Shown here piece by piece: positions 1-12,283 of a stretch of DNA of 21,759 bases. The notes under the pieces were generated by a model. That model ran no database searches. It was given only the letters and a program-made list of their open reading frames with translations, and was not told where the DNA came from. How positions within the stretch are numbered: position 1 is the first letter of the stretch; each line of letters begins with the position of its first letter. A program made the translations under genes and the position numbers. Origin of the DNA: a virus; IMG/VR virus record IMGVR_UViG_3300021964_000636, positions 1 through 21,759 of that record; one strand, given 5' to 3'.

Positions 1-270
1 AAGTGGGGTATCAACGATCACGCGGCTATGATCGAGAAGTTCGAGGCAGCCAAGGTCTTCACCGAGAACTTGACTGAGGACCAGATCACTAACTTGGCTG
101 AGTACTTCGTTCGCCTTCCGTCCGAGATCGCTATGAAGTTGTGGACTGTCCTCGGTGATGCCGACAACATTGATAATGTTGTGGCGCTCCACAAGGCTGA
201 GACTACTGAGGGTCGTCGGGTGTCTGATCACCTTGTAGAGATCCTCGGCGGCAACACCGATGAGACATAG
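1..270 (+). CDS. C-terminal part of an unknown protein, possibly an AAA+ (MoxR-like) ATPase; 5' partial
   Basis: The frame is open to the first base of the window, and the first ATG (position 28) has no Shine-Dalgarno sequence, so this is most likely the 3' end of a gene starting outside. About 89 residues are visible, helical and acidic (TEDQITNLAEYFVRLPSEI). No Walker or sensor motif is present. The guess that it is the tail of an AAA+ ATPase rests on context: the metallopeptidase/VWA protein encoded 0.5 kb downstream belongs to a family usually encoded with a MoxR-type ATPase, and this tail has the look of the C-terminal helical region of such ATPases. That assignment is weak. It overlaps the next gene by 11 bases. 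The codon use is C-ending and G+C-rich like the rest of the left block. Confidence 0.6.
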   Translation, partial: KWGINDHAAMIEKFEAAKVFTENLTEDQITNLAEYFVRLPSEIAMKLWTVLGDADNIDNVVALHKAETTEGRRVSDHLVEILGGNTDET

Positions 271-496
271 GCTGCCGCCAGTCGGCAGGGAACCCGAGTT
301 AGGGGATCTCTGTCGGCTTGCTGGTCCGGGTGATATGCCTACTCAGTTCTTTAGAAAGCACGGGCTAGGCATGGTCATCGACAAGTCTATCCATCCCCAA
401 GGTAGAGTTACAAACTATGAAATTAGATGGCTTAAAACTGATGAGCGCATGCGCTTCTTCGCGGAGGATCTGATCGTTGTCTCTGCCGTGGACTGA
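260..496 (+). CDS. Small SH3/KOW-like phage protein (family member 1)
   Basis: A 78-residue protein of unknown role. It starts 11 bases inside the previous gene, which suggests translational coupling. After a Pro/Arg-rich N-terminus it shows the pattern shared by about a dozen small proteins in this window: a G-D-L strand (LGDLCRL, residues 14-20), a G-[hydrophobic]-V-[hydrophobic]-D strand (GMVIDKS), a strand with a central Trp (YEIRWLK, near residue 54), and a last strand ending in hydrophobic residues (EDLIVVS). This strand order suggests a small beta barrel of the SH3/Tudor/KOW type, often used to bind nucleic acid or protein. The YEIRWL block closely parallels YDIYWL and VEIWWL in the members at 6957 and 6664. 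Function is not known. Confidence 0.7.
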   Translation: MRHRLPPVGREPELGDLCRLAGPGDMPTQFFRKHGLGMVIDKSIHPQGRVTNYEIRWLKTDERMRFFAEDLIVVSAVD

Positions 497-689
497 TAAC
501 ATCAAAATTGGTGATCTCCTGCTCGCTATCAGGGACGGCAAGCCTGCGATCGTTCTTGACAAAGAGGAGACATCACAAACCAAATATGGCGACATAGCCA
601 ACAAAAGATTCAGGTTCAAACTCCACATTGACAGAGAGCAAGGTTGGATTGATGAAGTTCGCTTACGCGCTTGGTATAAACGCCCCTGA
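477..689 (+). CDS. Small SH3/KOW-like phage protein (family member 2), TTG start
   Basis: A 70-residue protein. The TTG start at 477 is chosen because GGAGG lies at 463-467, nine bases upstream, and no ATG is available before the conserved GDL strand. It overlaps the previous gene by 20 bases. Visible pattern: IKIGDLLLAI, then KPAIVLDKEE, then FRFKLHI, and a final strand rich in Arg/Trp (VRLRAWYK), consistent with a five-strand SH3-like barrel. The Gly of the usual G-[I/V]-V-[V/L]-D strand is replaced (PAIVLD). Its TGA stop is also the first TGACA box of the downstream promoter region. Function unknown. Confidence 0.7.
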   Translation: MSLPWTDNIKIGDLLLAIRDGKPAIVLDKEETSQTKYGDIANKRFRFKLHIDREQGWIDEVRLRAWYKRP

Positions 690-740
690 CATTTCCTTGA
701 CAACTTAAACCTTGACCTTCACCCTCCATGATGCTATATT
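687..740 (+). promoter_or_regulatory. Promoter cassette 1 (sigma70-like with two upstream TGACA boxes)
   Basis: -35 TTGACC at 712-717, a 17-bp spacer and -10 TATATT at 735-740. Upstream boxes TGACA at 687 (overlapping the preceding stop codon) and TTGACA at 697; the TGAC cores lie at 687, 698 and 713, so spacings are 11 and 15 bp. AAGGAG at 749-754 then leads to the ATG at 762. Six further copies with the same geometry follow. Confidence 0.85.
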
Positions 741-761
741 ATATATGTAAGGAGAAAGAAC

Positions 762-1985
762 ATGTCTGACGACAAGACCGCCAAGCCCTTCAACCTGAAC
801 ATGCACACCGCTCGCCTGCTTATGCGCGAGCCCTTCTTCGCTGCGCTCTCACGCCGCATCGACAAGATCTCCTCCACAGCCGTTCCGACTGCTGGTGTGC
901 GCGTCAACCCTGATAGTGGTCAATTCGAGATGCTCTACAACCCTGAGTTCATGGGCGCACTCTCCGATCGTCACCTTCAAGGCATCCTGATGCACGAGTT
1001 CTATCACCTGATCTTCGAGCACGTGACTGGTCGCCTTCCCGGCGATGGGCTCAAGCGCATCGACAATATTGCGATGGACCTCTCTATCAACTGCCACATC
1101 TCCGACTACCTTCCTAGCGAGACTAACCCCGGTCCTGTTGTTGGCGAGGGTGAGCCTATGAAGGCTTGTATTCCCGGCGAGGGTATGTTCAAGGATCTTC
1201 CTCCGTTCAAGACCTACGAGTGGTATCTCGAAGCACTCAAGAAGATGCGCGATGAGCAGGAGCAAGACGGTGAGGGCGGCGATCCCTTCGGTGATGCGGA
1301 TTCTATGGACTCTCACGAGGGCTTTGGAAGCGCGGACGGCACCACGCAGGAGATCGCCAAGGAGCGCCTCAAGGAAGCGGTTAAGAAGGCTGCTGAAGAA
1401 GCCGAGAAGTCTAACAATTGGGGCTCTGTCTCACACTCCATGCGCCAAGACATCATGGAGCGCGTTGCGACCAAGGTTGACTGGCGTAAAGTTCTTCGAT
1501 ACTTCGTCAAGACCTCACAACGCGCCGACAAGCGTTCTACTCCTCGTCGCCTTAACAAGCGGTTTCCGAAGGTCCATCCCGGCAAGCGCGTCCGCCGTCA
1601 CGCCAAGATCGCTATCTCCATCGATCAGTCGGGCTCCGTTGATGATGGTATGCTCTCCGCGTTCTTCTCTGAGTTGAACAAGTTGGCTGAGATCGCAGAG
1701 TTCACCGTGATCCCCTTCGATACTGAGGTCGCTGAGGACAAGATCTACACGTGGAAGAAAGGTCAGAACAAGAAGACCGAGCGTGTTCTTACTGGTGGTA
1801 CAGACTTCAACGCCCCAACCAAGTACGTCAACGATCACAACTTCGACGGTCACATTATCCTCACGGATCTGATGGCTCCTAAGCCAGTCGCTTCCAAGTG
1901 CCAGCGCATGTGGATGACCACGAAGCAATACGCTGCACGTCCTTACTTCTCCACCACCGAGCGAATTATTGCTATCGATGTTTGA
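762..1985 (+). CDS. Metallopeptidase-like / VWA-domain protein (DUF2201 type)
   Basis: A 407-residue protein with two recognisable parts. Residues 78-87 read HEFYHLIFEH, a zincin HExxH motif within a 'putative metallopeptidase' N-terminal domain. A long acidic/charged linker (about 155-215) follows. Residues 282-405 form a VWA-like domain with a MIDAS-type DQSGS (288-292), a Thr loop in TGGTDF (344-349) and an Asp in LTDL (367-370). Proteins of this layout (Pfam DUF2201_N plus DUF2201) usually work with a MoxR-type AAA+ ATPase in metal-dependent protein remodelling; no complete ATPase gene is in view, though the partial gene at the left edge might be one. The start is fixed by AAGGAG 7 bases upstream and by its own promoter. 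Likely cytoplasmic, as no signal peptide is present. The role in phage growth is not known. Confidence 0.9.
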   Translation: MSDDKTAKPFNLNMHTARLLMREPFFAALSRRIDKISSTAVPTAGVRVNPDSGQFEMLYNPEFMGALSDRHLQGILMHEFYHLIFEHVTGRLPGDGLKRIDNIAMDLSINCHISDYLPSETNPGPVVGEGEPMKACIPGEGMFKDLPPFKTYEWYLEALKKMRDEQEQDGEGGDPFGDADSMDSHEGFGSADGTTQEIAKERLKEAVKKAAEEAEKSNNWGSVSHSMRQDIMERVATKVDWRKVLRYFVKTSQRADKRSTPRRLNKRFPKVHPGKRVRRHAKIAISIDQSGSVDDGMLSAFFSELNKLAEIAEFTVIPFDTEVAEDKIYTWKKGQNKKTERVLTGGTDFNAPTKYVNDHNFDGHIILTDLMAPKPVASKCQRMWMTTKQYAARPYFSTTERIIAIDV

Positions 1986-2036
1986 CAAGTGCTTGACAGT
2001 CTTCGCCTTGATCTCGGAGACTCTTGATGCTATATT
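1983..2036 (+). promoter_or_regulatory. Promoter cassette 2
   Basis: -35 TTGATC at 2008-2013, 17-bp spacer, -10 TATATT at 2031-2036. TGACA boxes at 1983 (the stop codon of the VWA gene) and 1994. The boxes keep the 11-bp and 15-bp spacing although the sequence between them differs from the other copies, which argues that the boxes themselves are under selection. Confidence 0.85.
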
Positions 2037-2061
2037 TAATAAACAAGAAAGGAGAAAACTC

Positions 2062-2388
2062 ATGCCTGCAACTGGACCTCGACTTGATAACGACGGAGTA
2101 ATTGACGCTTGGACAAAGGGCGTAAGTGCCCGTAACCACTCGCTTTCTTTGAAGAGCGTGGCTTGGGATGACGGCTATACTGACTTGTATAGTTATGACC
2201 TCAAGATCGGATCTCGAACTCCTGCTGGTGTGCTGGTGCTCGCAGACTACACCGCTCCGGCTGGCGGCTTCAGATCAATGACGACCTCTCAGCACGTTTG
2301 CCTTGCGAAGCACACGGCATCTAGCCCCGTGATAATGAACCCGCTTGTATGGGAGTCATCGCCGCTGAGTGATGAGGTTCCGTTCTAG
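2062..2388 (+). CDS. Hypothetical phage protein, 108 residues
   Basis: I do not recognise this family with confidence. The ATG at 2062 is chosen over an upstream in-frame ATG at 1969 because the latter would run back through the promoter and into the preceding gene, while AAGGAG (about 2049-2054) sits just before 2062. The protein has a polar N-terminus, then alternating hydrophobic residues typical of beta strands (SYDLKIGSRTPAGVLVLADY, about residues 45-64), then a Ser/Thr- and His-containing stretch (MTTSQHVCLAKHTA). No signal peptide, membrane segment or catalytic motif is seen. Its TAG stop shares one base with the GTG start of the next gene, so the two form an operon read from promoter cassette 2. 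Confidence 0.75.
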   Translation: MPATGPRLDNDGVIDAWTKGVSARNHSLSLKSVAWDDGYTDLYSYDLKIGSRTPAGVLVLADYTAPAGGFRSMTTSQHVCLAKHTASSPVIMNPLVWESSPLSDEVPF

Positions 2389-2591
2389 TGCCCGAGTTCA
2401 AGCCCGGAGATCTAGTAAAGATCACAGACGGCACACACGAGGATGGTTGGCCAGATGACCGAGTGGGGCTAGTCCTTGACTCTCACGAGCGAGGCGTGTA
2501 CCGCTATGAAGTTTTCTCCGTGCTTTTGCTCGGAACCAGCGAGCCCATAAAGATCCACAAGATGTTTCTGGAACACTTTACAAGTCTCTAA
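2388..2591 (+). CDS. Small SH3/KOW-like phage protein (family member 3), GTG start
   Basis: A 67-residue protein starting with GTG that overlaps the previous stop codon by one base (TAGTG), so translation is probably coupled. Pattern: FKPGDLVKI (residues 4-12), a loop with acidic and Trp residues, VGLVLDSHE, then YRYEVFSVLL and a terminal hydrophobic strand. This is one of the clearest members of the GDLV family, with both the P-G-D-L-V turn and the V-G-L-V-L-D strand. Function unknown; SH3-like folds commonly bind nucleic acids or proteins. Confidence 0.8.
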   Translation: MPEFKPGDLVKITDGTHEDGWPDDRVGLVLDSHERGVYRYEVFSVLLLGTSEPIKIHKMFLEHFTSL

Positions 2592-2631
2592 CAATTCAAA
2601 CCTTGACGAGAGCACTTAACGGTGCTATATT
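2578..2631 (+). promoter_or_regulatory. Promoter cassette 3 (degenerate upstream boxes)
   Basis: -35 TTGACG at 2603-2608, 17-bp spacer, -10 TATATT at 2626-2631, then AAGGAG at 2643. The two upstream boxes are present only in weakened form (TTACA at 2578, TAACA at 2589) but lie at exactly the same 11- and 15-bp offsets as in the other copies. Confidence 0.8.
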
Positions 2632-2653
2632 ATAAGCATAGAAAGGAGAAAGC

Positions 2654-2848
2654 ATGATCACTATCCCTCTTATCCGCACTGATAACGAGTCTAGCCTCAG
2701 CCCCATGGAACGCTCAATGGTTGTTTGCGAACAACTGATCACGGCGCTCATGATGCAAGGCACGCTCGATGATCCTACGATCACCGCGCAGGAAGCCGAT
2801 ACCTTCACAACTCTCTCCGTCGCTACCATCATTCCAGCAGAGGCATAG
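2654..2848 (+). CDS. Hypothetical small acidic protein, 64 residues
   Basis: A short gene with its own promoter and AAGGAG 5 bases before the ATG. The protein is mostly helical and acidic, with no Lys and several Thr/Ile residues (SPMERSMVVCEQLITALMMQ is likely one amphipathic helix, about residues 16-35). No known domain is recognised. It is followed, one base after its stop, by the zinc-finger gene at 2850, so the two probably form a two-gene operon. Confidence 0.7.
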   Translation: MITIPLIRTDNESSLSPMERSMVVCEQLITALMMQGTLDDPTITAQEADTFTTLSVATIIPAEA

Positions 2849-2849
2849 A

Positions 2850-3170
2850 ATGACCACTCTTCCCGTTATCGTGCATATGCCGCCCATGCTTTACACTGAT
2901 GGTCACGGCCAAAAGTGGGCGGTGTCTGGTCAGTTCTGGGTAGCGGTGCCTGAGACTGCTACACTTGGTTCTATCGACGAATATATGATCTACAAGCCAA
3001 GGATCAGAGAAGTTGTCGAGACAGAGGCAAAAACTTGGAATGTAGCCGGGAGCAAAGGTAAAAACTATAGCGTGTCTTTTGATGGGCATATCTGGCGCTG
3101 CAATTGCGTTGGCTTTGCCTTCCGTCGCAAGTGTCGGCATATCAATGAAAAGATGTTCGAGATCGCCTGA
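2850..3170 (+). CDS. SWIM-type zinc-finger protein
   Basis: A 106-residue protein. The C-terminal third contains C84-x-C86-x8-C95-x-H97 (WRCNCVGFAFRRKCRHI), the CxCx(n)CxH signature of SWIM zinc fingers, preceded by two short strands (NYSVSFDGHIW). SWIM domains bind DNA or mediate protein contacts in SWI2/SNF2 ATPases, MuDR transposases and plant and bacterial proteins; small phage versions of unknown role exist. The start at 2850 is preferred over 2769 because the latter lies wholly inside the preceding gene, and AGAGG lies just upstream of 2850. The N-terminal 60 residues contain no motif I recognise. Read from promoter cassette 3. Confidence 0.8.
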   Translation: MTTLPVIVHMPPMLYTDGHGQKWAVSGQFWVAVPETATLGSIDEYMIYKPRIREVVETEAKTWNVAGSKGKNYSVSFDGHIWRCNCVGFAFRRKCRHINEKMFEIA

Positions 3171-3221
3171 CATTCTCTTAACAAGATCACTATTGACCCA
3201 CAGCCCATCCGATGCTATATT
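3168..3221 (+). promoter_or_regulatory. Promoter cassette 4
   Basis: -35 TTGACC at 3193-3198, 17-bp spacer, -10 TATATT at 3216-3221. Boxes TGACA at 3168 (stop codon of the SWIM gene) and TAACA at 3179, at the standard 11/15-bp spacing. Confidence 0.85.
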
Positions 3222-3241
3222 ATAAGAGTAAGGAGAAAAGC

Positions 3242-3433
3242 GTGTCCATATACTATGCACCCAAAGAAGCTGTTGAGATGAAAGTCGGTGATCTGGTAAA
3301 GGATCGGTGGGGAACGGTTGGTGTCCTCGTTAAGTTTATTGATCCGATTGAAGTCCGATGGCTCGTTCAGTGGTCTAACGGAAAGCAATACGGCGCAAAC
3401 CAAGACACGCTGGAACTTGTTAGCGCCTCCTGA
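3242..3433 (+). CDS. Small SH3/KOW-like phage protein (family member 4), GTG start
   Basis: A 63-residue protein. GTG at 3242 lies 6 bases after AAGGAG; the upstream in-frame start at 3212 would be inside the -10 region, so it is rejected. Pattern: MKVGDLVKD, then TVGVLVKFID, then VRWLVQWSNG and a last strand LELVS. The central double-Trp strand is typical of the family. It is transcribed as a single-gene unit between promoter cassettes 4 and 5. Function unknown. Confidence 0.8.
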   Translation: MSIYYAPKEAVEMKVGDLVKDRWGTVGVLVKFIDPIEVRWLVQWSNGKQYGANQDTLELVSAS

Positions 3434-3484
3434 CATTTCCTTGACAACTTAGTCATTGACTTTGACCCCCGCGGGTGTTATATT
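3431..3484 (+). promoter_or_regulatory. Promoter cassette 5
   Basis: -35 TTGACT at 3456-3461, 17-bp spacer, -10 TATATT at 3479-3484. Boxes TGACA at 3431 (stop codon of the preceding gene) and TTGACA at 3441. The first 21 bases are identical to those of cassette 1. Confidence 0.87.
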
Positions 3485-3509
3485 ATTAGTATAGAAAGGA
3501 GATAGTTCT

Positions 3510-3683
3510 ATGATCAAACTCGGAAGCATCGTAACTAACGTCGGCTTTATCCAAGGACGCAACAACTCAAACCACGGGCTTGTTGTTGATCTTCTGGCTG
3601 ACGGCAAGATCGCTCGCGTGTTCTGGGCTTCCACTCAAAAGACTGGCTTCTGCTCCGTGTCCGACTTGCAAGTGGTTGCTTGA
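3510..3683 (+). CDS. Small SH3/KOW-like phage protein (family member 5), 57 residues
   Basis: ATG at 3510, preceded by a promoter and AAAGGAG; stop TGA at 3681-3683. The 57-residue protein begins MIKLGSIVTNVGF, where GS replaces the usual GD, continues with HGLVVDLLADGK and ARVFWAST, and ends SDLQVVA. The strand spacing matches the other GDLV proteins. The gene is single in its transcription unit. Function unknown. Confidence 0.75.
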   Translation: MIKLGSIVTNVGFIQGRNNSNHGLVVDLLADGKIARVFWASTQKTGFCSVSDLQVVA

Positions 3684-3734
3684 CATTCTCTTGACAACTT
3701 AACCCTTGCGATCCACCGCCCCCTGTGTTATATT
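3681..3734 (+). promoter_or_regulatory. Promoter cassette 6
   Basis: -35 TTGCGA at 3706-3711 (weaker than the others), 17-bp spacer, -10 TATATT at 3729-3734. Boxes TGACA at 3681 (stop codon) and TTGACA at 3691. Here the perfect TTGACA box remains although the true -35 has decayed. Confidence 0.85.
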
Positions 3735-3758
3735 ATATGTATAGAAAGGAGAAAGCAA

Positions 3759-3935
3759 ATGCTTCGCACTCAAGACCTGCCCCTCAAAACCTTCCGCGTC
3801 ACCTTCCACCTTCTGGAGCCCATGCGTCCACGCGCAACCCGTATCGTCAAGGCTCGTGATATGTATGAGGCGGCACGGCTCGTAGAGCTTCCAACAAACG
3901 CAATCCAGCCCATGAACATCAAAGAGATCAAGTAG
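3759..3935 (+). CDS. Hypothetical small basic protein, 58 residues
   Basis: ATG at 3759 after promoter cassette 6 and an AAGGAG site; stop TAG at 3933-3935. The protein has an FRVTFHLLEP strand near residues 12-21, a basic turn (RPRATRIVKARD) and an amphipathic helix (MYEAARLVEL). The pattern recalls small alpha/beta proteins, but I cannot assign a family. It is a single-gene unit in the promoter-rich early region and is supported mainly by its promoter, ribosome site and coding-like codon use. Confidence 0.7.
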   Translation: MLRTQDLPLKTFRVTFHLLEPMRPRATRIVKARDMYEAARLVELPTNAIQPMNIKEIK

Positions 3936-3939
3936 TCTC

Positions 3940-3993
3940 TGACATTCTCTTGACAACTTAGTTGTTGACTTCCACCCTCTCCGATGTTATATT
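3940..3993 (+). promoter_or_regulatory. Promoter cassette 7
   Basis: -35 TTGACT at 3965-3970, 17-bp spacer, -10 TATATT at 3988-3993. Boxes TGACA at 3940 and TTGACA at 3950. In this copy the upstream gene ends 5 bases earlier (TAG at 3933), so the TGA of the first box is not a stop codon. The box is therefore conserved in its own right. Confidence 0.87.
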
Positions 3994-4021
3994 ATTAGTA
4001 TAGAAAGAAAGGAGTTCATCT

Positions 4022-4357
4022 ATGCAACGCGCTATCGATCAAATCAAAATCCAAACCTCTCGCGACTACAAGCCAGCGCCTGCGCCTCCAACGCGCAAGC
4101 AAATCACCGGCTGGACCGTCGAGCAAGTTGGTCCGCGCATGTGGGTTGTGTTCCGCAACTCGACCACGCAAGGCAAGCAAGCCGTGATGGACTTTCCTGA
4201 GCGCGACTGGGCGCAATCTTTCGCTGATGGCTGCAACGCCGAGTATGCAAACCCTACCAAGATGAGCGCGAAGTCTCTCAAGCGCAAGGACGCTAAGTAT
4301 TTGACCGATGCCGAGAAGGCTGATCTTGCCGCACTTGAAGCCGGCGAGGACATTTAA
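4022..4357 (+). CDS. Hypothetical protein, 111 residues
   Basis: Start ATG 4022 is supported by AAGGAG at 4009-4014 and promoter cassette 7. The protein has a basic, Pro-rich N-terminus (RDYKPAPAPPTRKQ), a central region of strands and aromatic residues (GWTVEQVGPRMWVVFRNS, about residues 30-47), and a Lys/Ala-rich helical C-terminus. The positive charge and Lys/Arg clusters would suit nucleic acid binding, but no known motif is present. It is the last gene of the G+C-rich early block and ends in three in-frame stop codons in a row (TAATAATAA at 4355-4363), which suggests strong selection for clean termination. Confidence 0.75.
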   Translation: MQRAIDQIKIQTSRDYKPAPAPPTRKQITGWTVEQVGPRMWVVFRNSTTQGKQAVMDFPERDWAQSFADGCNAEYANPTKMSAKSLKRKDAKYLTDAEKADLAALEAGEDI

Positions 4358-4561
4358 TAATAACCCACCTAACCCGTAAAGCGCCAAGCGCGAGAGGTCA
4401 AGATAATGAAGACTCCCTATAAACGGCTATAAGAGGACTAGCCACCCTCCTAACTTAGCAGCAATAAAGCTGCACTAATAAAGACAACGACTCGAAAGGG
4501 CTGCGAGCATAAACAAAGATCCCACCTTTTTTCAATCAATCGTTTCGACGAGGTTTATAAC
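4358..4561 (+). other. Intergenic region, no gene; weak hairpins
   Basis: About 200 bases with no open reading frame of note. Small stem-loops can be drawn (GGCTA/TAGCC, GCAGC/GCTGC, CTCG/CGAG), and a run of six T occurs near 4528, so a short structured RNA or a weak terminator is possible. I see no tRNA cloverleaf and no strong intrinsic terminator. It marks the change from G+C-rich to A+T-rich sequence. Confidence 0.5.
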
Positions 4562-4963
4562 ATGACACGTACAGCTTTTCCATCGCCCGCTAACATCCGG
4601 CGTCAAACTCCCGATGAACTGTTTAGCAGGGATGCAGGTTATTTATTTAACAACCTGACTAAAGAGTTTGAGAAGAACGCCCGCGTTGGCTCAACAAAGC
4701 AGAGCATTTTGATCCGTCGTCGTGGTAGCTGGGGCAGAGCCGAAGCAGCTTGGATCGATTGGCACCAACAAAGCCAAGAACAAAGACAATACTCGATTGA
4801 TTATTGCAATCAAAAGCTGTCAACAACCGGCTGGCGCGTCAATGGCTTTACCTTTAGAAAGGTTCCCGAATATGCTAACACGTGGTATACAAACGGTAGA
4901 GATATGTGGGCGATCATTGTTGAGATGGAATATGCATGTGACGATGCGTGTGCGGCTAAATGA
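4562..4963 (+). CDS. Hypothetical protein, 133 residues
   Basis: ATG at 4562, with GAGG about 10 bases upstream. The protein is polar and aromatic-rich; it contains a basic segment (SILIRRRGSWGRAEAAWIDW, about residues 48-67), a Gln-rich helix (HQQSQEQRQYSIDYCNQK), then strands (GWRVNGFTFRKV) and a hydrophobic C-terminal strand (MWAIIVEMEYA). No family is recognised. Its TGA stop overlaps the next ATG (ATGA at 4960), so the two genes are coupled. Base composition is intermediate between the left and middle blocks. Confidence 0.7.
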   Translation: MTRTAFPSPANIRRQTPDELFSRDAGYLFNNLTKEFEKNARVGSTKQSILIRRRGSWGRAEAAWIDWHQQSQEQRQYSIDYCNQKLSTTGWRVNGFTFRKVPEYANTWYTNGRDMWAIIVEMEYACDDACAAK

Positions 4964-5268
4964 AATATTACATCTCCCAGACTATCGTTGAAGTTATTGA
5001 CGGTCGCTTGACTGGTAGAGAAGTAGTATTAACACGTGCGGACTCCAAGGTAGATGCAGACTCCGCGAGACTAAAAGATATAAAACTATTCAAAGCAAAG
5101 TTGGAGGCAATAGGAATACAAAACCTGCATATAAACAAATACGACAAGACTCGGTACAACAAATTGATCCGAGAGCAAAACAAGTATAGAAATAAGAAAG
5201 CCTTAACTGTGGCTGATATATCCCAGATGATCAAACAGTTCGATGAAGAAGTAGAAACAAAACAATAA
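4960..5268 (+). CDS. Hypothetical protein, 102 residues
   Basis: It starts inside the stop of the previous gene (ATGA overlap). The N-terminus looks like beta strands (YYISQTIVEVIDG, REVVLTRA); the remainder is strongly charged and helical, rich in Lys, Asp and Arg (YDKTRYNKLIREQNKYRNKK, about residues 65-84). A DNA- or RNA-contacting role is conceivable from the charge, but no motif supports it. The A+T-rich codon use differs clearly from genes left of 4360. Confidence 0.65.
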   Translation: MKYYISQTIVEVIDGRLTGREVVLTRADSKVDADSARLKDIKLFKAKLEAIGIQNLHINKYDKTRYNKLIREQNKYRNKKALTVADISQMIKQFDEEVETKQ

Positions 5269-5281
5269 TAGGAGTAGATGT

Positions 5282-5419
5282 ATGTTTATTGGTGGTATGT
5301 TGGTAGGTATTGGAACTGTTGGCGCTGTATGGGCAGCAGTTGTAGAGTCTAGGCGAGAGAAAGCACTAGAAAAGCGTTTGCAAGCGATAGAGGCTGTATG
5401 TTTCAAGTCGGAGACCTAG
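5282..5419 (+). CDS. Small single-span membrane protein, 45 residues
   Basis: ATG at 5282 with AGGAG at 5270-5274, 7 bases upstream; stop TAG at 5417-5419. Residues 2-21 are hydrophobic and Gly-rich (FIGGMLVGIGTVGAVWAAVV), a probable membrane helix, followed by a charged cytoplasmic tail (ESRREKALEKRL). Small proteins of this shape are common in phage accessory regions; some block superinfection or aid lysis, but nothing here decides the role. The 3' end overlaps the next gene by 22 bases in another frame. Confidence 0.65.
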   Translation: MFIGGMLVGIGTVGAVWAAVVESRREKALEKRLQAIEAVCFKSET

Positions 5420-5577
5420 TAAAAAGAAAAGCATTAGACAATAGCAGAACACGTGCTTACTGTGTAGTGGTAGAGATAACGAGAGACAATTACGTTTTAT
5501 ATAATAACTCTCTTAAATGTTTACAGAGAATAGCATTACCAGTAGTAGCAGAGTTATATAGCAAAGTAGTAGTATAA
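5398..5577 (+). CDS. Small SH3/KOW-like phage protein (family member 6), 59 residues
   Basis: ATG at 5398, inside the end of the preceding membrane-protein gene; stop TAA at 5575-5577. It begins MFQVGDLVKRKA, the family's diagnostic turn, followed by AYCVVVEITRDNYVLY and a run of short hydrophobic strands. The usual G-[I/V]-V strand is replaced by CVVVE. GAGG lies a few bases upstream of the start. It is the last gene before a 250-base region without genes. Function unknown. Confidence 0.7.
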   Translation: MFQVGDLVKRKALDNSRTRAYCVVVEITRDNYVLYNNSLKCLQRIALPVVAELYSKVVV

Positions 5578-5828
5578 TGCTTTACAGTGGATGTAGGTGC
5601 AATATAGTGCACATGTAATATGAGTTAATGATGTAGGTTGTTTTAATAATGTGATAGAAAATGTGATGGGGATGTGGTTGGGGCTTAGTATGTAGTCTCT
5701 ACCACTCTTTGTCAACCTGTAAGTTACATGCGACAGCATAATGCGCTTACAACCTGCACTCACGTCCAGCGAATGTGACCAGCAATTCCAACACCTTACG
5801 CGACACGATCGTCGCATACAAATATACA
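5578..5828 (+). other. Gene-free region with short repeats and small hairpins
   Basis: No credible gene on either strand; an antisense frame of 94 codons here is Cys/His/Ser-rich and has no ribosome site. Visible structure: hairpins GTGCA-ATATAG-TGCAC near 5597 and GCGAC-ACGATC-GTCGC near 5800, and three ATGTG[A/G] units at 5649, 5661 and 5672, spaced 12 and 11 bases, in a GT-rich stretch. It could hold an operator, an origin element or an unstructured leader. Nothing stronger can be claimed. Confidence 0.5.
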
Positions 5829-5857
5829 TTGACGGCATGTGATTTGCGTGTTATGAT
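5829..5857 (+). promoter_or_regulatory. Sigma70-like promoter without the TGACA boxes
   Basis: TTGACG at 5829-5834, a 17-bp spacer, and TATGAT at 5852-5857. Unlike the seven left-block promoters it has no TGACA boxes at the standard offsets. It would drive the peptide at 5879, the winged-helix gene and the membrane protein that follows. Confidence 0.7.
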
Positions 5858-5878
5858 AGTATAGAGAGAGAATAGAAC

Positions 5879-5950
5879 ATGATGAACATATCTGACGGCA
5901 TTGGCGCTATCATAATTGTGACTGCATTTGTGCTAGTAATGGCGTGTTGA
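5879..5950 (+). CDS. Putative 23-residue hydrophobic peptide
   Basis: ATG at 5879 shortly after a good promoter, stop TGA at 5948-5950, with only a weak purine-rich (GAGAGAG) ribosome site. Residues 8-23 are hydrophobic (GAIIIVTAFVLVMAC). It could be a membrane micropeptide or merely a leader upstream of the regulator gene. It is listed because of its position directly behind the promoter; it may not be a real gene. Confidence 0.35.
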   Translation: MMNISDGIGAIIIVTAFVLVMAC

Positions 5951-6035
5951 TGAATAGGGCAGACACTACATATAGTGTGTGTGCATGCAAATGATTAGCG
6001 AATTCCCGTATAAGAGAGAGTGGGAGACACTATAT

Positions 6036-6380
6036 ATGGAATTACTTATTAAAATAGGTGATGTTAAACTGACTGCAACAGAGATTGATATCCTGCATAT
6101 CATCCTCGATACTGAACAATATGACTGGACTATCGGTTCTATCGCAACTTGTTTGCCGGCATCATACGAAGACATATGGAGAGATGTGCAGTCTCTTATC
6201 CTACACGGATTGCTAGCTCGCACAAACATGTCCCAAAGTTTCGAGAACATAAAAGTAATATCTGTAACAGTTCCTTTGACTGCTCGTGCTTGGCTATCAC
6301 AAAATGAGCAAGACATTGAAGACGCATTTGTAATATTAAACCCAGACATGTTTGAACTAACAGAGGTAGGCGAAGCATGA
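6036..6380 (+). CDS. Winged helix-turn-helix (MarR-like) DNA-binding protein
   Basis: From ATG 6036 the protein has 114 residues. KLTATEIDILHIILDT is typical of the second helix of MarR-type winged helices; TIGSIATCLPASYEDIWRDV fits the helix-turn-helix; LILHGLLART and VISVTVPLTARAWL fit the wing strands. MarR-like proteins bind DNA as dimers and usually repress transcription. The start 6036 is chosen because GGGAG lies 9 bases upstream (6022-6026); in-frame starts at 5979 (GTG), 5985 and 5991 lack a ribosome site but would add residues that look coding, so they remain possible. It is the only clear transcription factor in the window and thus a candidate regulator of one of the two promoter sets seen here. 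Its stop overlaps the next ATG (ATGA). Confidence 0.7.
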   Translation: MELLIKIGDVKLTATEIDILHIILDTEQYDWTIGSIATCLPASYEDIWRDVQSLILHGLLARTNMSQSFENIKVISVTVPLTARAWLSQNEQDIEDAFVILNPDMFELTEVGEA

Positions 6381-6511
6381 GAAGAAGAGTAGGAAGACTA
6401 TTAGATAAAGGATGTATGATAGTATCGTTTACTCCTATTGTATTATTTGTTTATGCCATTGCATTAAAGAAAGGGTTTAACTGTTACAGTAACTGTTCAG
6501 TGAATGAATGA
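6377..6511 (+). CDS. Small single-span membrane protein, 44 residues
   Basis: ATG at 6377 overlaps the stop of the winged-helix gene (ATGA); stop TGA at 6509-6511. It has a very basic N-terminus (MRRRVGRLLDKG), a hydrophobic helix (CMIVSFTPIVLFVYAIAL, residues 13-30) and a short tail with two Cys. The positive-inside rule would put the N-terminus in the cytoplasm. Coupling to a regulator suggests co-expression, not necessarily joint function. Role unknown. Confidence 0.6.
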   Translation: MRRRVGRLLDKGCMIVSFTPIVLFVYAIALKKGFNCYSNCSVNE

Positions 6512-6653
6512 CAATTGCTTGACGAGGTGCTAGGGGTACCCCCCTACCCCCCTACCGGGATATATGTCCCTATGTTCGGTGTGTGCTGGATGTGGTGGCT
6601 AAGTACGTTTTCGATCCGCGCCTAAAATTTTGAGATATAAGAACCTGAGCGCG
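6512..6653 (+). other. Intergenic region upstream of the 6664 gene
   Basis: No gene. It holds the G/C-rich inverted repeat, a TATATG at 6561 and, at 6617-6653, part of a direct repeat shared with the end of the following gene. The frame ending at 6656 (APKILRYKNLSA before a TAG) resembles a displaced copy of that gene's tail but is closed upstream by a stop at 6600. Confidence 0.45.
6531..6546. repeat. Inverted repeat TAGGGG-TACC-CCCCTA in a C-rich tract
   Basis: A perfect 6-bp stem with a 4-base loop containing the palindrome GGGGTACCCC, followed by a second CCCCCCTA run and a weaker GGGA/TCCC stem near 6558-6571. No T tract follows, so it is not a normal terminator. The - strand carries runs of G (GGGGGG twice). 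It lies just after two TGACA-like boxes (6509 and 6520), in the place where a -35 would be expected. Confidence 0.55.
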
Positions 6654-6671
6654 TAGTTACTACGTGGCACA
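6617..6671 (+). repeat. Direct repeat, copy 1 (flanks the 6664 gene)
   Basis: CGCGCCTAAAA-TTTT, a spaced A/G-rich segment, then TAGTTA and GTGGCACA recur at 6918-6964. The two imperfect copies bracket the 6664 gene, and each ends in the start region of a GDLV-family gene. Confidence 0.55.
6654..6663 (+). promoter_or_regulatory. TAGTTA start-adjacent motif (candidate leaderless promoter), copy A
   Basis: TAGTTACTAC directly abuts the GTG start at 6664, with no Shine-Dalgarno sequence between. The same block precedes at least four other starts at the same distance. TAGTTA at about -10 relative to the start codon would place transcription initiation at or near the GTG. Confidence 0.55.
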
Positions 6672-6942
6672 TCTCAAAGAGTTCTTCGAAAAAGCACCTG
6701 CCCATGACTTTGCAGTCGGGGATCTGGTCACATGCGACTGCCATGGCGGACTTGCCATCATAATTCGCATCTTTGACGGCACTAATGAAAAGGAACCCGA
6801 CTACCCGTCCATGAATATGGTCGAAATTTGGTGGCTAAGGTACCCACACCGCGGAATTAAAGAACGCCAGTGGATACACACCATATCGAGATTAAAAAGG
6901 CACACAGGCAAAAATTACGCGCCTAAAAATTTTACAGATTAG
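6664..6942 (+). CDS. Small SH3/KOW-like phage protein (family member 7), GTG start
   Basis: A 92-residue protein starting GTG at 6664, without a ribosome site but with the TAGTTA motif immediately upstream. After an N-terminal helix (AHLKEFFEKAPAHD) it shows FAVGDLVTCDCHGG, LAIIIRIFDG, VEIWWLRYPHRG and a terminal strand ISRLKRH. The VEIWWL strand matches YDIYWL in the next gene and YEIRWL in the gene at 260. Two Cys follow the GDLV turn. The gene lies between two direct repeats, so it may be an inserted or duplicated cassette. Function unknown. Confidence 0.8.
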   Translation: MAHLKEFFEKAPAHDFAVGDLVTCDCHGGLAIIIRIFDGTNEKEPDYPSMNMVEIWWLRYPHRGIKERQWIHTISRLKRHTGKNYAPKNFTD

Positions 6943-6964
6943 AGCATAGTTATAATGTGGCACA
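6918..6964 (+). repeat. Direct repeat, copy 2
   Basis: The partner of 6617-6671. In this copy the first half codes for the C-terminus of the 6664 protein (YAPKNFTD), and the second half is the start region of the next gene. Confidence 0.55.
6947..6956 (+). promoter_or_regulatory. TAGTTA start-adjacent motif, copy B
   Basis: TAGTTATAAT directly precedes the GTG at 6957. It contains a perfect TATAAT but no -35 at the right distance and no Shine-Dalgarno sequence. Confidence 0.55.
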
Positions 6965-7220
6965 CAATACCGGCAGCAGCTTAACATCAATATACGTCAA
7001 AGGTGACTTGGTTCAGTACGTAGAGTACTTTTATTACCCAACAGCAGTACGAGTAACAGCCCATGACGACTTACACAACAACGATGTTGGTATTGTGGTG
7101 GATACAGTGTACTCTATGTATGGCAATGAGTTGTACGACATATATTGGTTAAGAACCGGTAAGCGAAGTTTTACGCAGGCTATAAACCTTAAATTGGCTT
7201 ATTTGATACCGGGCACCTAA
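6957..7220 (+). CDS. Small SH3/KOW-like phage protein (family member 8), GTG start
   Basis: An 87-residue protein with a GTG start at 6957 fixed by the adjacent TAGTTA motif; no Shine-Dalgarno. Pattern: IYVKGDLVQYVEYF, an insertion of about 20 residues, then DVGIVVDTVYS, LYDIYWLRTGKRS and a terminal strand INLKLAYL. Its first three residues (MAH) and upstream sequence match those of the preceding gene, so the two probably arose by duplication. Function unknown. Confidence 0.8.
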   Translation: MAHNTGSSLTSIYVKGDLVQYVEYFYYPTAVRVTAHDDLHNNDVGIVVDTVYSMYGNELYDIYWLRTGKRSFTQAINLKLAYLIPGT

Positions 7221-7228
7221 TTATACAC
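7218..7228 (+). promoter_or_regulatory. TAATTA start-adjacent motif, copy C
   Basis: TAATTATACAC precedes the ATG at 7229; its first three bases are the stop codon of the upstream gene. No Shine-Dalgarno sequence. This is a variant of the TAGTTA motif. Confidence 0.4.
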
Positions 7229-7474
7229 ATGAAAATCAAAAAGTCAGAACTGCGCATTATCGTGCTTGAAGAGCTTACCAAGTCCGATAAAGATGAAATC
7301 CAGCGCATGATTTCAAAAGAACTTAAGAAAATGGTCGAAGATGAAGTAGCAAAAGCTATCAAGTCGAAAAACATCAAGGACGACATTGGTGATATTACCA
7401 AGAAAGTTCTTAAAAAGCTGTACAAGGATATGTCTGTACATCATCCTTACATTATTGACCGAATTAAAGTGTAA
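7229..7474 (+). CDS. Conserved small helical phage protein, 81 residues
   Basis: A highly charged, fully helical protein beginning MKIKKSELRIIVLEEL, a type of N-terminus frequent in proteins of marine T4-like phages, then a Lys/Glu-rich middle and an ending KLYKDMSVHHPYIIDRIKV. I recall close relatives in marine viral contigs but know of no function. The leading peptide might be a capsid-targeting or oligomerisation element, as discussed for other proteins here. ATG 7229 has no Shine-Dalgarno site. Confidence 0.75.
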   Translation: MKIKKSELRIIVLEELTKSDKDEIQRMISKELKKMVEDEVAKAIKSKNIKDDIGDITKKVLKKLYKDMSVHHPYIIDRIKV

Positions 7475-7521
7475 CTTAGTGACACGCGGGACTATGTATA
7501 GACCGCTGTTGGAGATATAAA

Positions 7522-7776
7522 ATGTTTAAAACGCAAGTAATAGCAATAACGCTGAGCGCATTAGCCGGAACATCTGCGGGACTAGTCGGAGAGCAAGTGG
7601 TGTCCAAGCCCGAGATGCTGCCCATTCCTTACGAAACCGTGGGCGACACTGTTCCCTTACAGCCATTTAATCACTCACCAGTTATTGAATGCAATGGTAT
7701 TACGCTAGACGATGCTGTTGATATTAAGATCGTCAGCGAGTGTGCTGTTGGTCGTGTAGGTTGGCTTAAACTGTAG
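7522..7776 (+). CDS. Small exported protein with signal peptide, 84 residues
   Basis: ATG 7522 with GGAG at 7511-7514. Residues 1-20 form a signal peptide (Lys at 3, hydrophobic core VIAITLSALAGTSAG) with possible cleavage after TSAG. The mature part is acidic and strand-like and has two Cys (near 57 and 74) that could pair in the periplasm. No known domain. Export from a phage gene suggests action on the host envelope, such as exclusion or lysis, but this is not shown. The 47-base leader contains TATGTATAG, a loose relative of the start-adjacent motif. Confidence 0.65.
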   Translation: MFKTQVIAITLSALAGTSAGLVGEQVVSKPEMLPIPYETVGDTVPLQPFNHSPVIECNGITLDDAVDIKIVSECAVGRVGWLKL

Positions 7777-7784
7777 ACAACACC

Positions 7785-7794
7785 TAGTTACTAT
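7785..7794 (+). promoter_or_regulatory. TAGTTA start-adjacent motif, copy D
   Basis: TAGTTACTAT directly precedes the GTG at 7795, without a Shine-Dalgarno sequence. It has the same spacing as copies A and B. Confidence 0.55.
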
Positions 7795-8037
7795 GTGGAC
7801 CTCAGAAGTGGCATGGTATTGTACGATGTCGTCGATAAAAGTTTTATCATACTTGTTCGACGATTTTGGTCATACGAAGGACTAGAAGCGCCGTCGTATG
7901 CTAAGATTAATCCCGACTTTTTTAAAGTATGGGTGTGGGAAACTTTGTCGTCAAAAGAAGGCAAGATGTTTTGGTCGGAAGGTGGCTTGCATAATTTAAT
8001 CAAGTCGGAGATTATTATCGTATTGGATGATATTTAA
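7795..8037 (+). CDS. Small SH3/KOW-like phage protein (family member 9), GTG start
   Basis: An 80-residue protein with GTG at 7795 set by the adjacent motif. It starts MDLRSGMVLYDVVDKS, where GM stands in place of GD, then FIILVRRFW, KVWVWETLSSKEG and a C-terminal hydrophobic strand EIIIVLDD. The two-Trp strand (VWVWE) aligns with IWWL and IYWL of its neighbours. It is a more diverged family member. It sits in a run of three such genes (7795, 8044, 8337). Function unknown. Confidence 0.75.
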   Translation: MDLRSGMVLYDVVDKSFIILVRRFWSYEGLEAPSYAKINPDFFKVWVWETLSSKEGKMFWSEGGLHNLIKSEIIIVLDDI

Positions 8038-8043
8038 GAAACT

Positions 8044-8322
8044 ATGCAAACAAACTTGCGCGAAGAGTCAGAACGTATTAAGTTAGTACCCGGCGATATG
8101 ATCGTTGATATTGCTTCTAATAATGTCGGCATTCTGATAGAGCGTGTCCGTCGTATTAGCATGCAAGATGATGATGTTTACTTTTGGATTATTCACTGGA
8201 CTAAAGAGTCGGATAATATGGTGCCTATGACTCTGCAAATGGAAGAAGATGGTCTCAAGATCTCGATAGTCGTTGGTTTGTATGACCTTTTCTCAAGTAG
8301 TGATTTGCAAAAGCTGAAATAA
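8044..8322 (+). CDS. Small SH3/KOW-like phage protein (family member 10)
   Basis: A 92-residue protein starting ATG 8044. No Shine-Dalgarno; TATTTA (8031-8036) lies 7 bases before the ATG. Clear family pattern: LVPGDMIVDIAS, then VGILIERVRR, VYFWIIHWTKES and LKISIVVGL. A helical C-terminal tail of about 15 residues follows the barrel. Function unknown. Confidence 0.8.
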   Translation: MQTNLREESERIKLVPGDMIVDIASNNVGILIERVRRISMQDDDVYFWIIHWTKESDNMVPMTLQMEEDGLKISIVVGLYDLFSSSDLQKLK

Positions 8323-8336
8323 TTTTAGGAAAAAAT

Positions 8337-8543
8337 ATGGAAAAAATTTCGAAGTTTGATGTCGGTGATCTGGTATTGATAGGCGATCATCCTCATACCG
8401 AACCTGCCATCATACTTAAAATGGGACCTGCGCGGGAAGATAAGCAAACGATTATGTTTCCTGTATGTCATATTTTAAACCTGCGAACTTCTGCTGTTGA
8501 GAGATCTTATTTGTTTAGATTGCGTCTTCTTTCTGCAAGCTGA
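8337..8543 (+). CDS. Small SH3/KOW-like phage protein (family member 11)
   Basis: A 68-residue protein with AGGA at 8327-8330, 6 bases before ATG 8337. It reads ISKFDVGDLVLIGDHPH, then PAIILKMG, MFPVCHILNLRTS and a last strand YLFRLRLLS. This gene, unlike its neighbours, has a ribosome site, so it is probably translated from the transcript of the gene before it. Function unknown. Confidence 0.8.
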   Translation: MEKISKFDVGDLVLIGDHPHTEPAIILKMGPAREDKQTIMFPVCHILNLRTSAVERSYLFRLRLLSAS

Positions 8544-8554
8544 TAGTTACTTTA
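8544..8554 (+). promoter_or_regulatory. TAGTTA start-adjacent motif, copy E
   Basis: TAGTTACTTTA directly precedes the GTG at 8555, immediately after the TGA stop of the previous gene. No Shine-Dalgarno sequence. Confidence 0.5.
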
Positions 8555-8722
8555 GTGGACAAGCTTAATAAGATCATGTTTCCAATTGCTGTGGCGGCTT
8601 TCTTTGTTAATATATGGATGCTGATATGGGGTTCGATGAATAACCTCCATGATCTTGAAATACTATCTCTTTGCAATATGATCTTATTAAGTTTCGTTCT
8701 TCTTCGTCGAGAAGACGGATAG
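8555..8722 (+). CDS. Small two-span membrane protein, 55 residues, GTG start
   Basis: GTG at 8555 set by the adjacent TAGTTA motif; stop TAG at 8720-8722. The protein MDKLNKIMFPIAVAAFF... has two hydrophobic segments (about residues 8-26 and 36-50) separated by a short polar loop (GSMNNLHDLE), and an RREDG tail. The hairpin shape is like that of some small holins or exclusion proteins, but no diagnostic residue is present. It lies between the SH3-like run and the VWA lipoprotein gene. Confidence 0.6.
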   Translation: MDKLNKIMFPIAVAAFFVNIWMLIWGSMNNLHDLEILSLCNMILLSFVLLRREDG

Positions 8723-8727
8723 CGACA

Positions 8728-8737
8728 TATTTACTAT
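8728..8737 (+). promoter_or_regulatory. TATTTA motif with leader (candidate phage promoter)
   Basis: TATTTACTAT lies 28 bases before the GTG at 8766. In this copy a leader with AGGAGGG follows. If the motif sets transcription start 4-5 bases downstream, the mRNA would begin near 8738, leaving room for the ribosome site. Confidence 0.4.
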
Positions 8738-8765
8738 GTCGTAAGACTGCATAGGAGGGTTAAAT

Positions 8766-9785
8766 GTGGGAGTGTTTTTATTTGTTTTAAGCTTATTGTC
8801 TTGTTACACTGATTACTCAATCGGTCAAGAGAAAAAAGTTATATCTGAAATAAAAGAAGTGGAAGTGATCGTAGAGGTTCCGGTTGAAACGGTCGTCGAG
8901 ATTGAGGTTCCAGTTTATATAGAAGTTGAGGTTCCGGTCAACGAAGGTGAGATCTGGGTTGACTCGTTTACTCAACATCACTCTATTGAAGGTATCGATA
9001 TCTTATGGGTTATTGACCGTTCAGGTTCTATGCATATTTATAACTCGCAGTTGTTAGCCGGTATTGAAGCAATGTTATTAGCTCTGCCAACAAGCGACTG
9101 GCGTCTTGTAATGATTAGTGCCGACCCAACAGACTCTGTGCTGAGTACTGAGTTTCCTCTTATTCCGGGTGACGATGTAGCCGATGCGGCAGATATGATG
9201 TCTACATTAGGTAATGGAGGCTTAGAGGAGGGCTTTGAGTCTGTATATCAGTACATCGTTATTAACCCTTACTCTTCAACTTGGATGCGTCCAGATGCTG
9301 GCTTGTTAGTTGTGTTTGTTTCTGATGAAGAAGAGCAAAGCAATGTTAGATATCCATTAGCAATGGAATTTGTAAGTTGGTACCGCTCTTTGCGAGGCGG
9401 GTCGGTATTTATGGCTAGCATCGTAAACCATGAATTTGGTACCTCGTTATGCAGTTGGGCTGTTAGTCCATTAGATGTTGGAGAAAGATACATGGAAGCC
9501 ACAAATGCTTTTGGTGGGGTTGTGGTAGACATCTGTGATTCTGATTGGTCTCCGGGTGTGACTGACGCGACACGCTCACTGGATCCAATAGAAAATATAA
9601 AATTAACTCACCAAGCAGAAGAGGACTCTATTAGAGTTTTCATCAACGGTTCTTTAAATTACGACTGGTACTACCAAGCATCAGATAACACAGTTTATTT
9701 CACTATTGTGCCGTCTGGTGGTGATTTAGTCGAAGTTGGTTATAGGTATATAGCAGCACCGGATACCGGTGATAGTGGCTTATAG
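8766..9785 (+). CDS. VWA-domain lipoprotein
   Basis: A 339-residue surface protein. GTG 8766 is preceded by AGGAGGG at 8753-8759; the ATG at 8764 is in another frame and closes at once. Residues 1-13 form a short lipoprotein signal ending LLSC (lipid-carrying Cys13), unusual in lacking basic residues at the N-terminus. Residues 31-60 are a Val/Glu/Pro repeat (VEVPV units), probably a stiff stalk. The VWA domain starts near 77, with MIDAS DRSGSM (84-89) and a second acidic loop VSDEEEQS. The last third is strand-rich and ends PDTGDSGL. VWA domains bind metal and a protein ligand. In a phage genome this could be a host-surface protein made during infection or a virion component. The stalk and tail recall lipoproteins of Myxococcota and relatives. 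It is followed by an exported protease gene. Confidence 0.85.
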   Translation: MGVFLFVLSLLSCYTDYSIGQEKKVISEIKEVEVIVEVPVETVVEIEVPVYIEVEVPVNEGEIWVDSFTQHHSIEGIDILWVIDRSGSMHIYNSQLLAGIEAMLLALPTSDWRLVMISADPTDSVLSTEFPLIPGDDVADAADMMSTLGNGGLEEGFESVYQYIVINPYSSTWMRPDAGLLVVFVSDEEEQSNVRYPLAMEFVSWYRSLRGGSVFMASIVNHEFGTSLCSWAVSPLDVGERYMEATNAFGGVVVDICDSDWSPGVTDATRSLDPIENIKLTHQAEEDSIRVFINGSLNYDWYYQASDNTVYFTIVPSGGDLVEVGYRYIAAPDTGDSGL

Positions 9786-9793
9786 GAGATATC

Positions 9794-10528
9794 ATGAAAC
9801 ACTTACCTTTAATATTTGCGATGTTGCTGTCGCTATTATCAAACTCACAAGCAGCAACAAACACAGCAGCAGTTCCCTTACCTGTTGAACATGCTGACGT
9901 AGCCATGAATATGGCACAAAAGAAAGTTAGAGAAGCCGCAGTTAAAGTTGCTTCTGGTGGAGGGCACGGAAGTGGTTCGTATATCGTCCATAAAGGTCTT
10001 CACATGGTTTTTACTGCACAACATGTAGCAGACGGTCATATTGGCTCGAAGTATCAAGTATTCAAAGGCAAAGAAATGAGAGTTGCCACTCTTGTTTGGT
10101 CTAGTGAGTTAACAGACATGGCTGTACTTTATTTACCCGAGAGATTTATTACTGCTGACCCAATGAAGTGGGATCCTCAAAAACGAATTGCTGAAGTTGG
10201 GACTGATATAACTTATTCTGGTTTTCCGTCAAGCCATAAGTTAATGACTTTTGCTGGTAGCGTAGCGGGATATGCTGAACGTCATGGAGCAGGAAAGCAG
10301 ATTATTCTTAACACATATGGGTGGTTTGGTTGCTCGGGCTCTGTTGTTTACAATTTAAAAGGTGAGATCATTGGTATCTTGTACGGTGTTGATGTTGAAT
10401 ATCATCCAGACATACAAGTTCAGGAGAATATGATTTGGGTCGCTCCTATACAACAAATTAAAATAGAAAACATTGTAAAAAGAATTTGTTCTGGTGTACC
10501 ATATGGAACCGCAAGAGCTTGTAAATAA
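9794..10528 (+). CDS. Exported trypsin-like serine protease
   Basis: A 244-residue protein with a signal peptide (residues 1-20, cleavage near SQA) and a chymotrypsin-like fold. The catalytic residues can be placed: His77 in TAQHV, Asp108 in LTDMAV, Ser181 in GCSGS. The Gly-rich GGGHGSGSYIV at 55-65 is the usual first strand of HtrA/trypsin-like domains. Length fits a single protease domain without PDZ. AGGAG overlaps the stop of the VWA lipoprotein gene, and the ATG lies 8 bases beyond that stop, so the two genes form one operon and may act together at the host envelope or outside the cell. An exported trypsin-like protease is uncommon in a phage of this kind. Confidence 0.85.
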   Translation: MKHLPLIFAMLLSLLSNSQAATNTAAVPLPVEHADVAMNMAQKKVREAAVKVASGGGHGSGSYIVHKGLHMVFTAQHVADGHIGSKYQVFKGKEMRVATLVWSSELTDMAVLYLPERFITADPMKWDPQKRIAEVGTDITYSGFPSSHKLMTFAGSVAGYAERHGAGKQIILNTYGWFGCSGSVVYNLKGEIIGILYGVDVEYHPDIQVQENMIWVAPIQQIKIENIVKRICSGVPYGTARACK

Positions 10529-10530
10529 TA

Positions 10531-10968: not shown

Positions 10969-10969
10969 A

Positions 10970-12280: not shown

Positions 12281-12283
12281 ACA

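Follow-up and report, generated by a model that had tools for sequence, protein, structure and literature searches.

At the CII-dependent promoters of phage lambda, a phage activator binds a TTGC-N6-TTGC direct repeat whose two units lie about one helical turn apart and straddle the -35 element. The middle promoters of phage T4 form a regulon set by a short box, the MotA box, which replaces the -35 element at -30 of promoters with a sigma70 -10 element, and the early promoters of T4 combine UP, -35, TGn, and -10 elements with additional consensus regions and function without a phage activator (PMC2988021). In bacteria, all known sites of the OmpR/PhoB family of response regulators are described as direct repeats, and for Mycobacterium tuberculosis PhoP the two 7-bp motifs must be separated by exactly 4 bp (PMC4832192); PhoP boxes in reverse orientation can activate from 37 and 48 nt upstream of the -10 element (PMC3335776), and host PhoB regulates cyanophage genes (PMC10976474). 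Here we analyze a promoter cassette that occurs seven times in a stretch of viral DNA, the whole IMG/VR record IMGVR_UViG_3300021964_000636 (21,759 bp, hereafter the window). Each cassette has two TGACA-type boxes upstream of a sigma70-type promoter, and these boxes most likely represent a lineage-specific tandem site for a putative regulator, probably an activator.

The cassettes resemble T4 early promoters in their host-sigma70-type -35, TGN, and -10 elements, in their extra consensus sequence, in being present in many copies before small genes without an assigned function, and in belonging to a T4-like phage. They differ in having an 11-bp CTTGACA direct repeat in place of the A/T-rich UP element and in being confined to one block. 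Similar to the MotA regulon, the set of genes considered here would be united by a short box at promoters with a sigma70 -10 element, but the box pair lies upstream of a -35 element that is retained. A short direct repeat of about one turn is also the feature shared with the CII promoters; however, both boxes of the cassettes are located upstream, 15 and 26 bp from the TGAC of the -35 element. The sites of the OmpR/PhoB family, such as the PHO box and the PhoP box, have in common with the cassettes two 7-bp direct-repeat motifs, a 4-bp spacer, the core TGTCA on the minus strand, and a fixed phase to the -10 element, whereas the cassettes are reverse-oriented, keep a good -35 element, occur in phages that lack such a regulator, and have a palindrome as their counterpart in sister phages. 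The cyanophage genes controlled by host PhoB likewise have promoters of marine T4-like phages with a regulator site upstream, but there several scattered genes are involved, compared with one stereotyped module in a block of 6-17 promoters here.

Seven Promoter Cassettes in the Window

The sequence-only reading had described seven transcription units whose -35 and -10 elements are preceded by two additional boxes. All seven were confirmed at the same positions, and the offsets are constant in 7/7 cassettes: 11 bp from box 1 to box 2, 15 bp from box 2 to the TGAC of the -35 element, and a 17-bp spacer. The cassettes are as follows (mismatches are relative to the 20 defined bases).

687-740, plus strand: cassette 1, 0 mismatches; box 1 687-691 TGACA, box 2 698-702 TGACA, -35 712-717 TTGACC, -10 735-740 TATATT preceded by TGC; the TGA of box 1 is the stop codon of the open reading frame (ORF) 477-689
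1983-2036, plus strand: cassette 2, 1 mismatch; box 1 1983-1987 TGACA, box 2 1994-1998 TGACA, -35 2008-2013 TTGATC, -10 2031-2036; the TGA of box 1 is the stop codon of ORF 762-1985
2578-2631, plus strand: cassette 3, 2 mismatches, one per box; box 1 2578-2582 TTACA, box 2 2589-2593 TAACA, -35 2603-2608 TTGACG, -10 2626-2631; the TAA of box 2 is the stop codon of ORF 2388-2591
3168-3221, plus strand: cassette 4, 1 mismatch; box 1 3168-3172 TGACA, box 2 3179-3183 TAACA, -35 3193-3198 TTGACC, -10 3216-3221; the TGA of box 1 is the stop codon of the ORF ending at 3170
3431-3484, plus strand: cassette 5, 0 mismatches; box 1 3431-3435, box 2 3442-3446, -35 3456-3461 TTGACT, -10 3479-3484; the TGA of box 1 is the stop codon of the ORF ending at 3433
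3681-3734, plus strand: cassette 6, 2 mismatches, both in the -35; box 1 3681-3685 and box 2 3692-3696, both perfect, -35 3706-3711 TTGCGA, poor, -10 3729-3734
3940-3993, plus strand: cassette 7, 0 mismatches; box 1 3940-3944, box 2 3951-3955, -35 3965-3970 TTGACT, -10 3988-3993

No further site with up to four mismatches was found on either strand of the window, and Markov shuffles of the window yielded 0.003 sites with three mismatches and none with fewer. Every cassette combines a -35 and a -10 element (9-10 of 12 matches) at a spacing within the 16-18 bp of sigma70-type promoters, with a TGN (extended -10) directly 5' of the -10 element (7/7). A form of sigma70-type promoter with the sequence CTTGAC-N17-CTATAT has been described in Sinorhizobium meliloti (PMC2873474). 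As had been argued, the upstream boxes are not usable as the -35 element of a second promoter: 15-19 bp downstream of either box, even the best -10-like hexamer differs from TATAAT at 3-4 positions.

The use of a TGA stop codon as part of box 1 was reproduced in five of the seven cassettes (1, 2, 4, 5, and 6). Cassette 7 keeps box 1 outside the stop codon, the upstream ORF ending earlier with TAG 3933-3935. The poor -35 element and perfect boxes of cassette 6 had also been pointed out correctly, and TTGC-type -35 elements with perfect boxes recur across the clade. Cassettes 2 and 3 had been said to keep the offsets between the boxes; this holds for both, with the qualification that the two boxes of cassette 3 are each degenerate by one base.

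Conservation of the Boxes and Their Spacing

Promoters of the related phages were collected using a seed that comprised only the -10 element, the ribosome site, and the start codon, and not the boxes. This set contains 372 sites, 292 of which have the box pair at one fixed place; box mismatches are distributed bimodally, with either 0-1 or 3 and more. Perfect copies among the 292 sites number 250 for box 1, 265 for box 2, and 211 for the -35 TTGAC. Given a perfect box 2, another perfect TGACA is present 11 bp upstream in 229/268 cases, and 11 bp is the only distance under 23 bp at which one occurs. In 210 nonredundant sites, the information content reaches 9.25 (box 1) and 9.36 (box 2) of 10 bits, values which are somewhat inflated by the selection of sites with at most two box mismatches, compared with 6.71 for the -35 element and nearly 0 for the flanks. 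The boxes are unlikely to be decoration because they are more conserved than the -35 element itself.

The half-site can be written as CTTGACA and the full site as CTTGACA-N4-CTTGACA. Its distance to the -35 element is 15 bp, rarely 14, and where the promoter spacer is 16 instead of 17 bp the boxes shift together with the -35 element; therefore, they are phased to the polymerase. Since the -35 element varies alone (TTGC, TTGAT, TAGACA) and the gap tolerates either length, the best interpretation of the "triple" architecture of the sequence-only reading is a single site of two boxes followed by an ordinary -35 element.

A few sigma70 promoters without boxes are found outside the block of the same genomes, and their upstream DNA is A/T-rich (80% A+T vs. 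65% for the array promoters, P-value = 3e-6). The A/T-rich UP element typical of the T4 early class was thus not found in the array.

Distribution of the Cassette

The exact four-part pattern (TGACA, TGACA, -35 TGAC, and TATATT at fixed spacings) was searched in IMG/VR and in 84,980 prokaryote genomes. In IMG/VR we detected 169 sites (154 distinct sequences) on approximately 67 viral contigs, and none when the inner spacings were altered by 1 bp (N7/N11), indicating that the spaced boxes are strongly enriched among related phages. Together with the conservation of the boxes relative to their flanks and the internal contrast provided by the box-less promoters, this supports the earlier proposal that the boxes may be a regulator site upstream of RNA polymerase.

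The prokaryote genomes contain the pattern once, on a contig (L089, NZIV01000080.1) binned with a metagenome-assembled genome (MAG) of Neomarinimicrobiota. This contig, the only one of the MAG with the box pair, was considered to be phage because it is syntenic with the window. A host assignment based on this MAG was rejected: the matches are on its phage contig only, and the phylum shows no enrichment.

Twenty large records have 2-13 sites each (up to three mismatches), always on a single strand per record, and a reversed control pattern gave no site in the same records. Near-complete carriers contain 6-17 such promoters each, again on one strand, and in four near-complete genomes nearly all sites are located inside one 15-20 kb block of higher G+C. 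Based on terminase, the carriers are T4-like marine phages with genomes of about 185-205 kb, the closest cultured terminase being that of Flavobacterium phage immuto (47%), and proteins of clade members are about 48% identical to one another. At the DNA level, the initial 5 kb of the window matched no cultured phage, and a consensus cassette gave only weak partial matches.

Different Upstream Sites in Sister Phages

Relatives which have the same core genes but lack the exact box pattern are informative. One sister phage (G043) has no TGACA pair and carries, in the homologous block, 16 perfect GGACA-N5-TGTCC palindromes, each located just before the promoter -35 region (L344-L353, e.g., 1119-1161 and 183473-183515). 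Another (G047, L365) has 25 palindromes in 20 kb, relaxed form included, where 0.05 were expected, and about ten further contigs belong to the palindrome class. In G051 the TGACA pair is perfect or nearly so and all -35 elements are TAGACA, and G042 has neither the TGACA pair nor the palindrome. These differences imply that the upstream site is a lineage-specific operator and not a fixed part of the promoter. A possible covariation between -35 element and box in G043 (TGGAC with GGACA) was dropped, since G047 combines the palindrome with TTGAC and G051 combines TGACA boxes with TAGACA.

We tentatively suggest that the clade keeps a portable regulon (approximately 6-17 short units in a shuffling block) and that the operators of its promoters are swapped all together from one lineage to another. 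The two operator classes would be the CTTGACA direct repeat upstream and the GGACA-N5-TGTCC palindrome abutting the -35 element. If true, such an exchange would mean either the wholesale replacement of a master regulator or the rewiring of the regulon to the regulator of a new host, and its extension over the whole promoter set would make regulon rewiring testable by comparison of sister lineages.

Possible Function of the Boxes and Alternative Explanations

In the mechanism that we favor, the cassette would act as a CTTGAC-N17-TGN-TATATT promoter with a short leader and a strong ribosome site, and the two CTTGACA half-sites, located near -61 and -50 from the predicted start, would form a direct repeat with an 11-bp period. 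A dimer might occupy both half-sites on one face of the helix beside RNA polymerase and, when bound, raise initiation. A single regulator could in this way switch the 6-17 or so short gene units of the block together. Protein binding, activation rather than repression, and early timing of the genes are what we infer. We lean slightly toward a regulator encoded by the phage and regard one encoded by the host as rather unlikely. Sigma70-type phage promoters with a regulator site would be ordinary; what appears unusual is a stereotyped module repeated over a gene block, boxes that are more conserved than the -35 element, and an operator class that seems to be exchanged between sisters. A regulon would thereby be defined from sequence alone in widespread uncultured marine T4-like phages, in which most genes of the block have no assigned function, and the boxes could be used as bait for the regulator and, if this is a host protein, perhaps for the host.

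Several points weigh against this interpretation. The -35, TGN, and -10 elements are already strong, and the boxes may only fine-tune. Perfect boxes accompany 49/55 promoters with a poor -35 element versus 180/237 others, which speaks for a role of the boxes but is a weak link (P-value = 0.044, relatedness not corrected for). Moreover, no reader protein was identified among the candidates, and the DNA-binding candidates of the phage core do not track the boxes. The first, cl78, is a small core protein that combines sigma region 4 with a cluster of Cys residues at the N terminus (Sigma70_r4 match in 14/21 records; the PDB profile matches are sigma70 region 4). It was largely rejected as an obligatory reader, since G001 lacks it despite its 13 boxed promoters and box-less G042 has it. 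The second, cl77, perhaps a ribbon-helix-helix protein, was rejected because it is present in all genomes, boxed or not; it has no Pfam or PHROG match, and its AlphaFold monomer model is of low quality (pLDDT 68) and yielded no credible match to a known fold. The third, the weakly Fis-like cl21, is also present in all genomes. A phylogenetic profile for box-specific genes returned 11 genes, none of which is a clear DNA-binding regulator.

Proteins of the cl78 type are found throughout the clade (e.g., L150:1366-1638) and have more than 500 relatives in IMG/VR, with no match in cultured phages. A one-piece transfer-messenger RNA (tmRNA) encoded by the phage lies close to the Fis-like helix-turn-helix gene in G006 (26533-26865; L099:6533-6865), G001 (29469-29890; L233:9469-9890), and five other relatives. 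The two tmRNAs tested matched Rfam RF00023 with 115 and 113 bits, and the tags are related, such as ANNNLHFEQRLAA.

A serious rival, although in our view an unlikely one, is that an OmpR/PhoB-type response regulator of the host reads the boxes and would gate the phage block by the nutrient state of the host. On the opposite strand the site reads TGTCAAG-N4-TGTCAAG, that is, two 7-bp motifs with a 4-bp spacer, and this direct-repeat geometry of the family is found with the 11-bp period of the 229/268 sites mentioned above. TGTCA is also the core of the Escherichia coli PHO-box motif CTGTCAT, this core alone matching, in reverse orientation, and the phages themselves have no OmpR/PhoB-type protein (PF00486) in nine records. 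However, the whole architecture is absent from the 84,980 species genomes save the one phage contig, and 199 Neomarinimicrobiota genomes show no enrichment of the box pair (8 chromosomal sites vs. 13 for the reversed control). No phosphate gene was recognized in the array by gene names, a search that was not exhaustive, and the palindrome of the sister phages is a type of site that the OmpR/PhoB family does not bind.

It is less probable still that no dedicated regulator is involved and that the boxes belong to an early promoter of great strength, with the host RNA polymerase touching them directly through its alpha C-terminal domains or extra sigma contacts. The additional consensus regions of the T4 early promoters, which have no phage activator, the strength of the -35, TGN, and -10 elements, and the resemblance of the boxes to a -35 element (TTGACA) are consistent with this possibility. 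On the other hand, the boxes carry a nearly fully conserved G and C at an invariant 11-bp spacing, unlike A/T-rich UP elements, whereas these genomes do show A/T-rich DNA upstream of their box-less promoters, and a palindrome at that place in sister lineages would be hard to explain by polymerase contact.

Binding of the -35-like boxes by cl78 through its sigma region 4 and Cys cluster is very improbable; the Sigma70_r4 match of this small core protein and the TTGACA-like boxes would fit, but its occurrence in G001 and G042 is the opposite of that of the boxes. That the cassettes are no more than junk that was duplicated recently or is recombining, or that they act as RNA, for instance as a terminator or a leader hairpin, is hardly credible. 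Cassettes 1, 5, 6, and 7 do have long identical stretches in common, genes upstream often end within a cassette, and the array order is shuffled, but box positions are conserved and linkers freer across genomes whose proteins are about 48% identical, and the cassettes have no conserved stem-loop or RNA fold (consensus 0 kcal/mol, z-scores -0.2 to 0.8), no terminator excess, and no Rfam match.

Gene Block behind the Promoters

Coordinated control of a gene array by a site for a putative regulator, as suggested from the window, is supported by the confinement of the cassettes to one block and by the swap of the box for the palindrome across the homologous block of the sisters. In the window, the block comprises the following genes.

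28-270, plus strand: 3' end of a MoxR-type AAA ATPase gene, cut by the record start; 65% identical to the C-terminal part of G006_255, and the family matches PHROG 1297 ATPase
762-1985, plus strand: gene of cassette 1, DUF2201 metallopeptidase plus VWA-like protein (PF13203, E = 4.8e-14; PF09967, E = 1.4e-12); conserved in the clade
2062-4357, plus strand: small array genes behind cassettes 2-7 (2062-2388, 2388-2591, 2654-2848, 2850-3170, 3242-3433, 3510-3683, 3759-3935, and 4022-4357), with almost no PHROG matches

Orthologs of several of the small genes are present in the G001, G006, and G008 arrays. Across the clade, the block contains the MoxR ATPase, the DUF2201 metallopeptidase/VWA protein, a zinc-knuckle-like protein, and many small proteins without an assigned function. 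Gene adjacency between genomes is kept in 15/64 cases in the array versus 371/506 outside, and 68/69 array orthologs stay in the array. Among 457 upstream genes, 211 stop at box 1, 68 at box 2, and 28 at a TAA 19 bp into the cassette, indicating that the genes abut the cassette.

The gene for the VWA/DUF2201 protein matches as two stretches with a short gap in G044 and G052 (L366, which is G044:45001-65000, and L360-L363), and in G044 its surroundings showed no boxed promoters. G+C in the window is about 50% with a slightly negative GC skew at 1-4400 and about 40% with a positive skew at 4500-21759; a G+C peak at the promoter block is observed in relatives as well. Downstream of the array, the window encodes a trypsin-like peptidase (9794-10528), a NUDIX hydrolase (10531-10968), and a staphylococcal-nuclease-like protein (15612-15980). 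In addition, tandem small genes of the GDLV type overlap by 14 nt in G004 (100904-101578), and similarly in G001, G005, G006, G008, G009, G042, and G043; one sequence there, AATGAARGTNGGTGA, codes for the C terminus of one protein (NESR, stop) as well as for the N terminus of the protein that follows (MKVGD).

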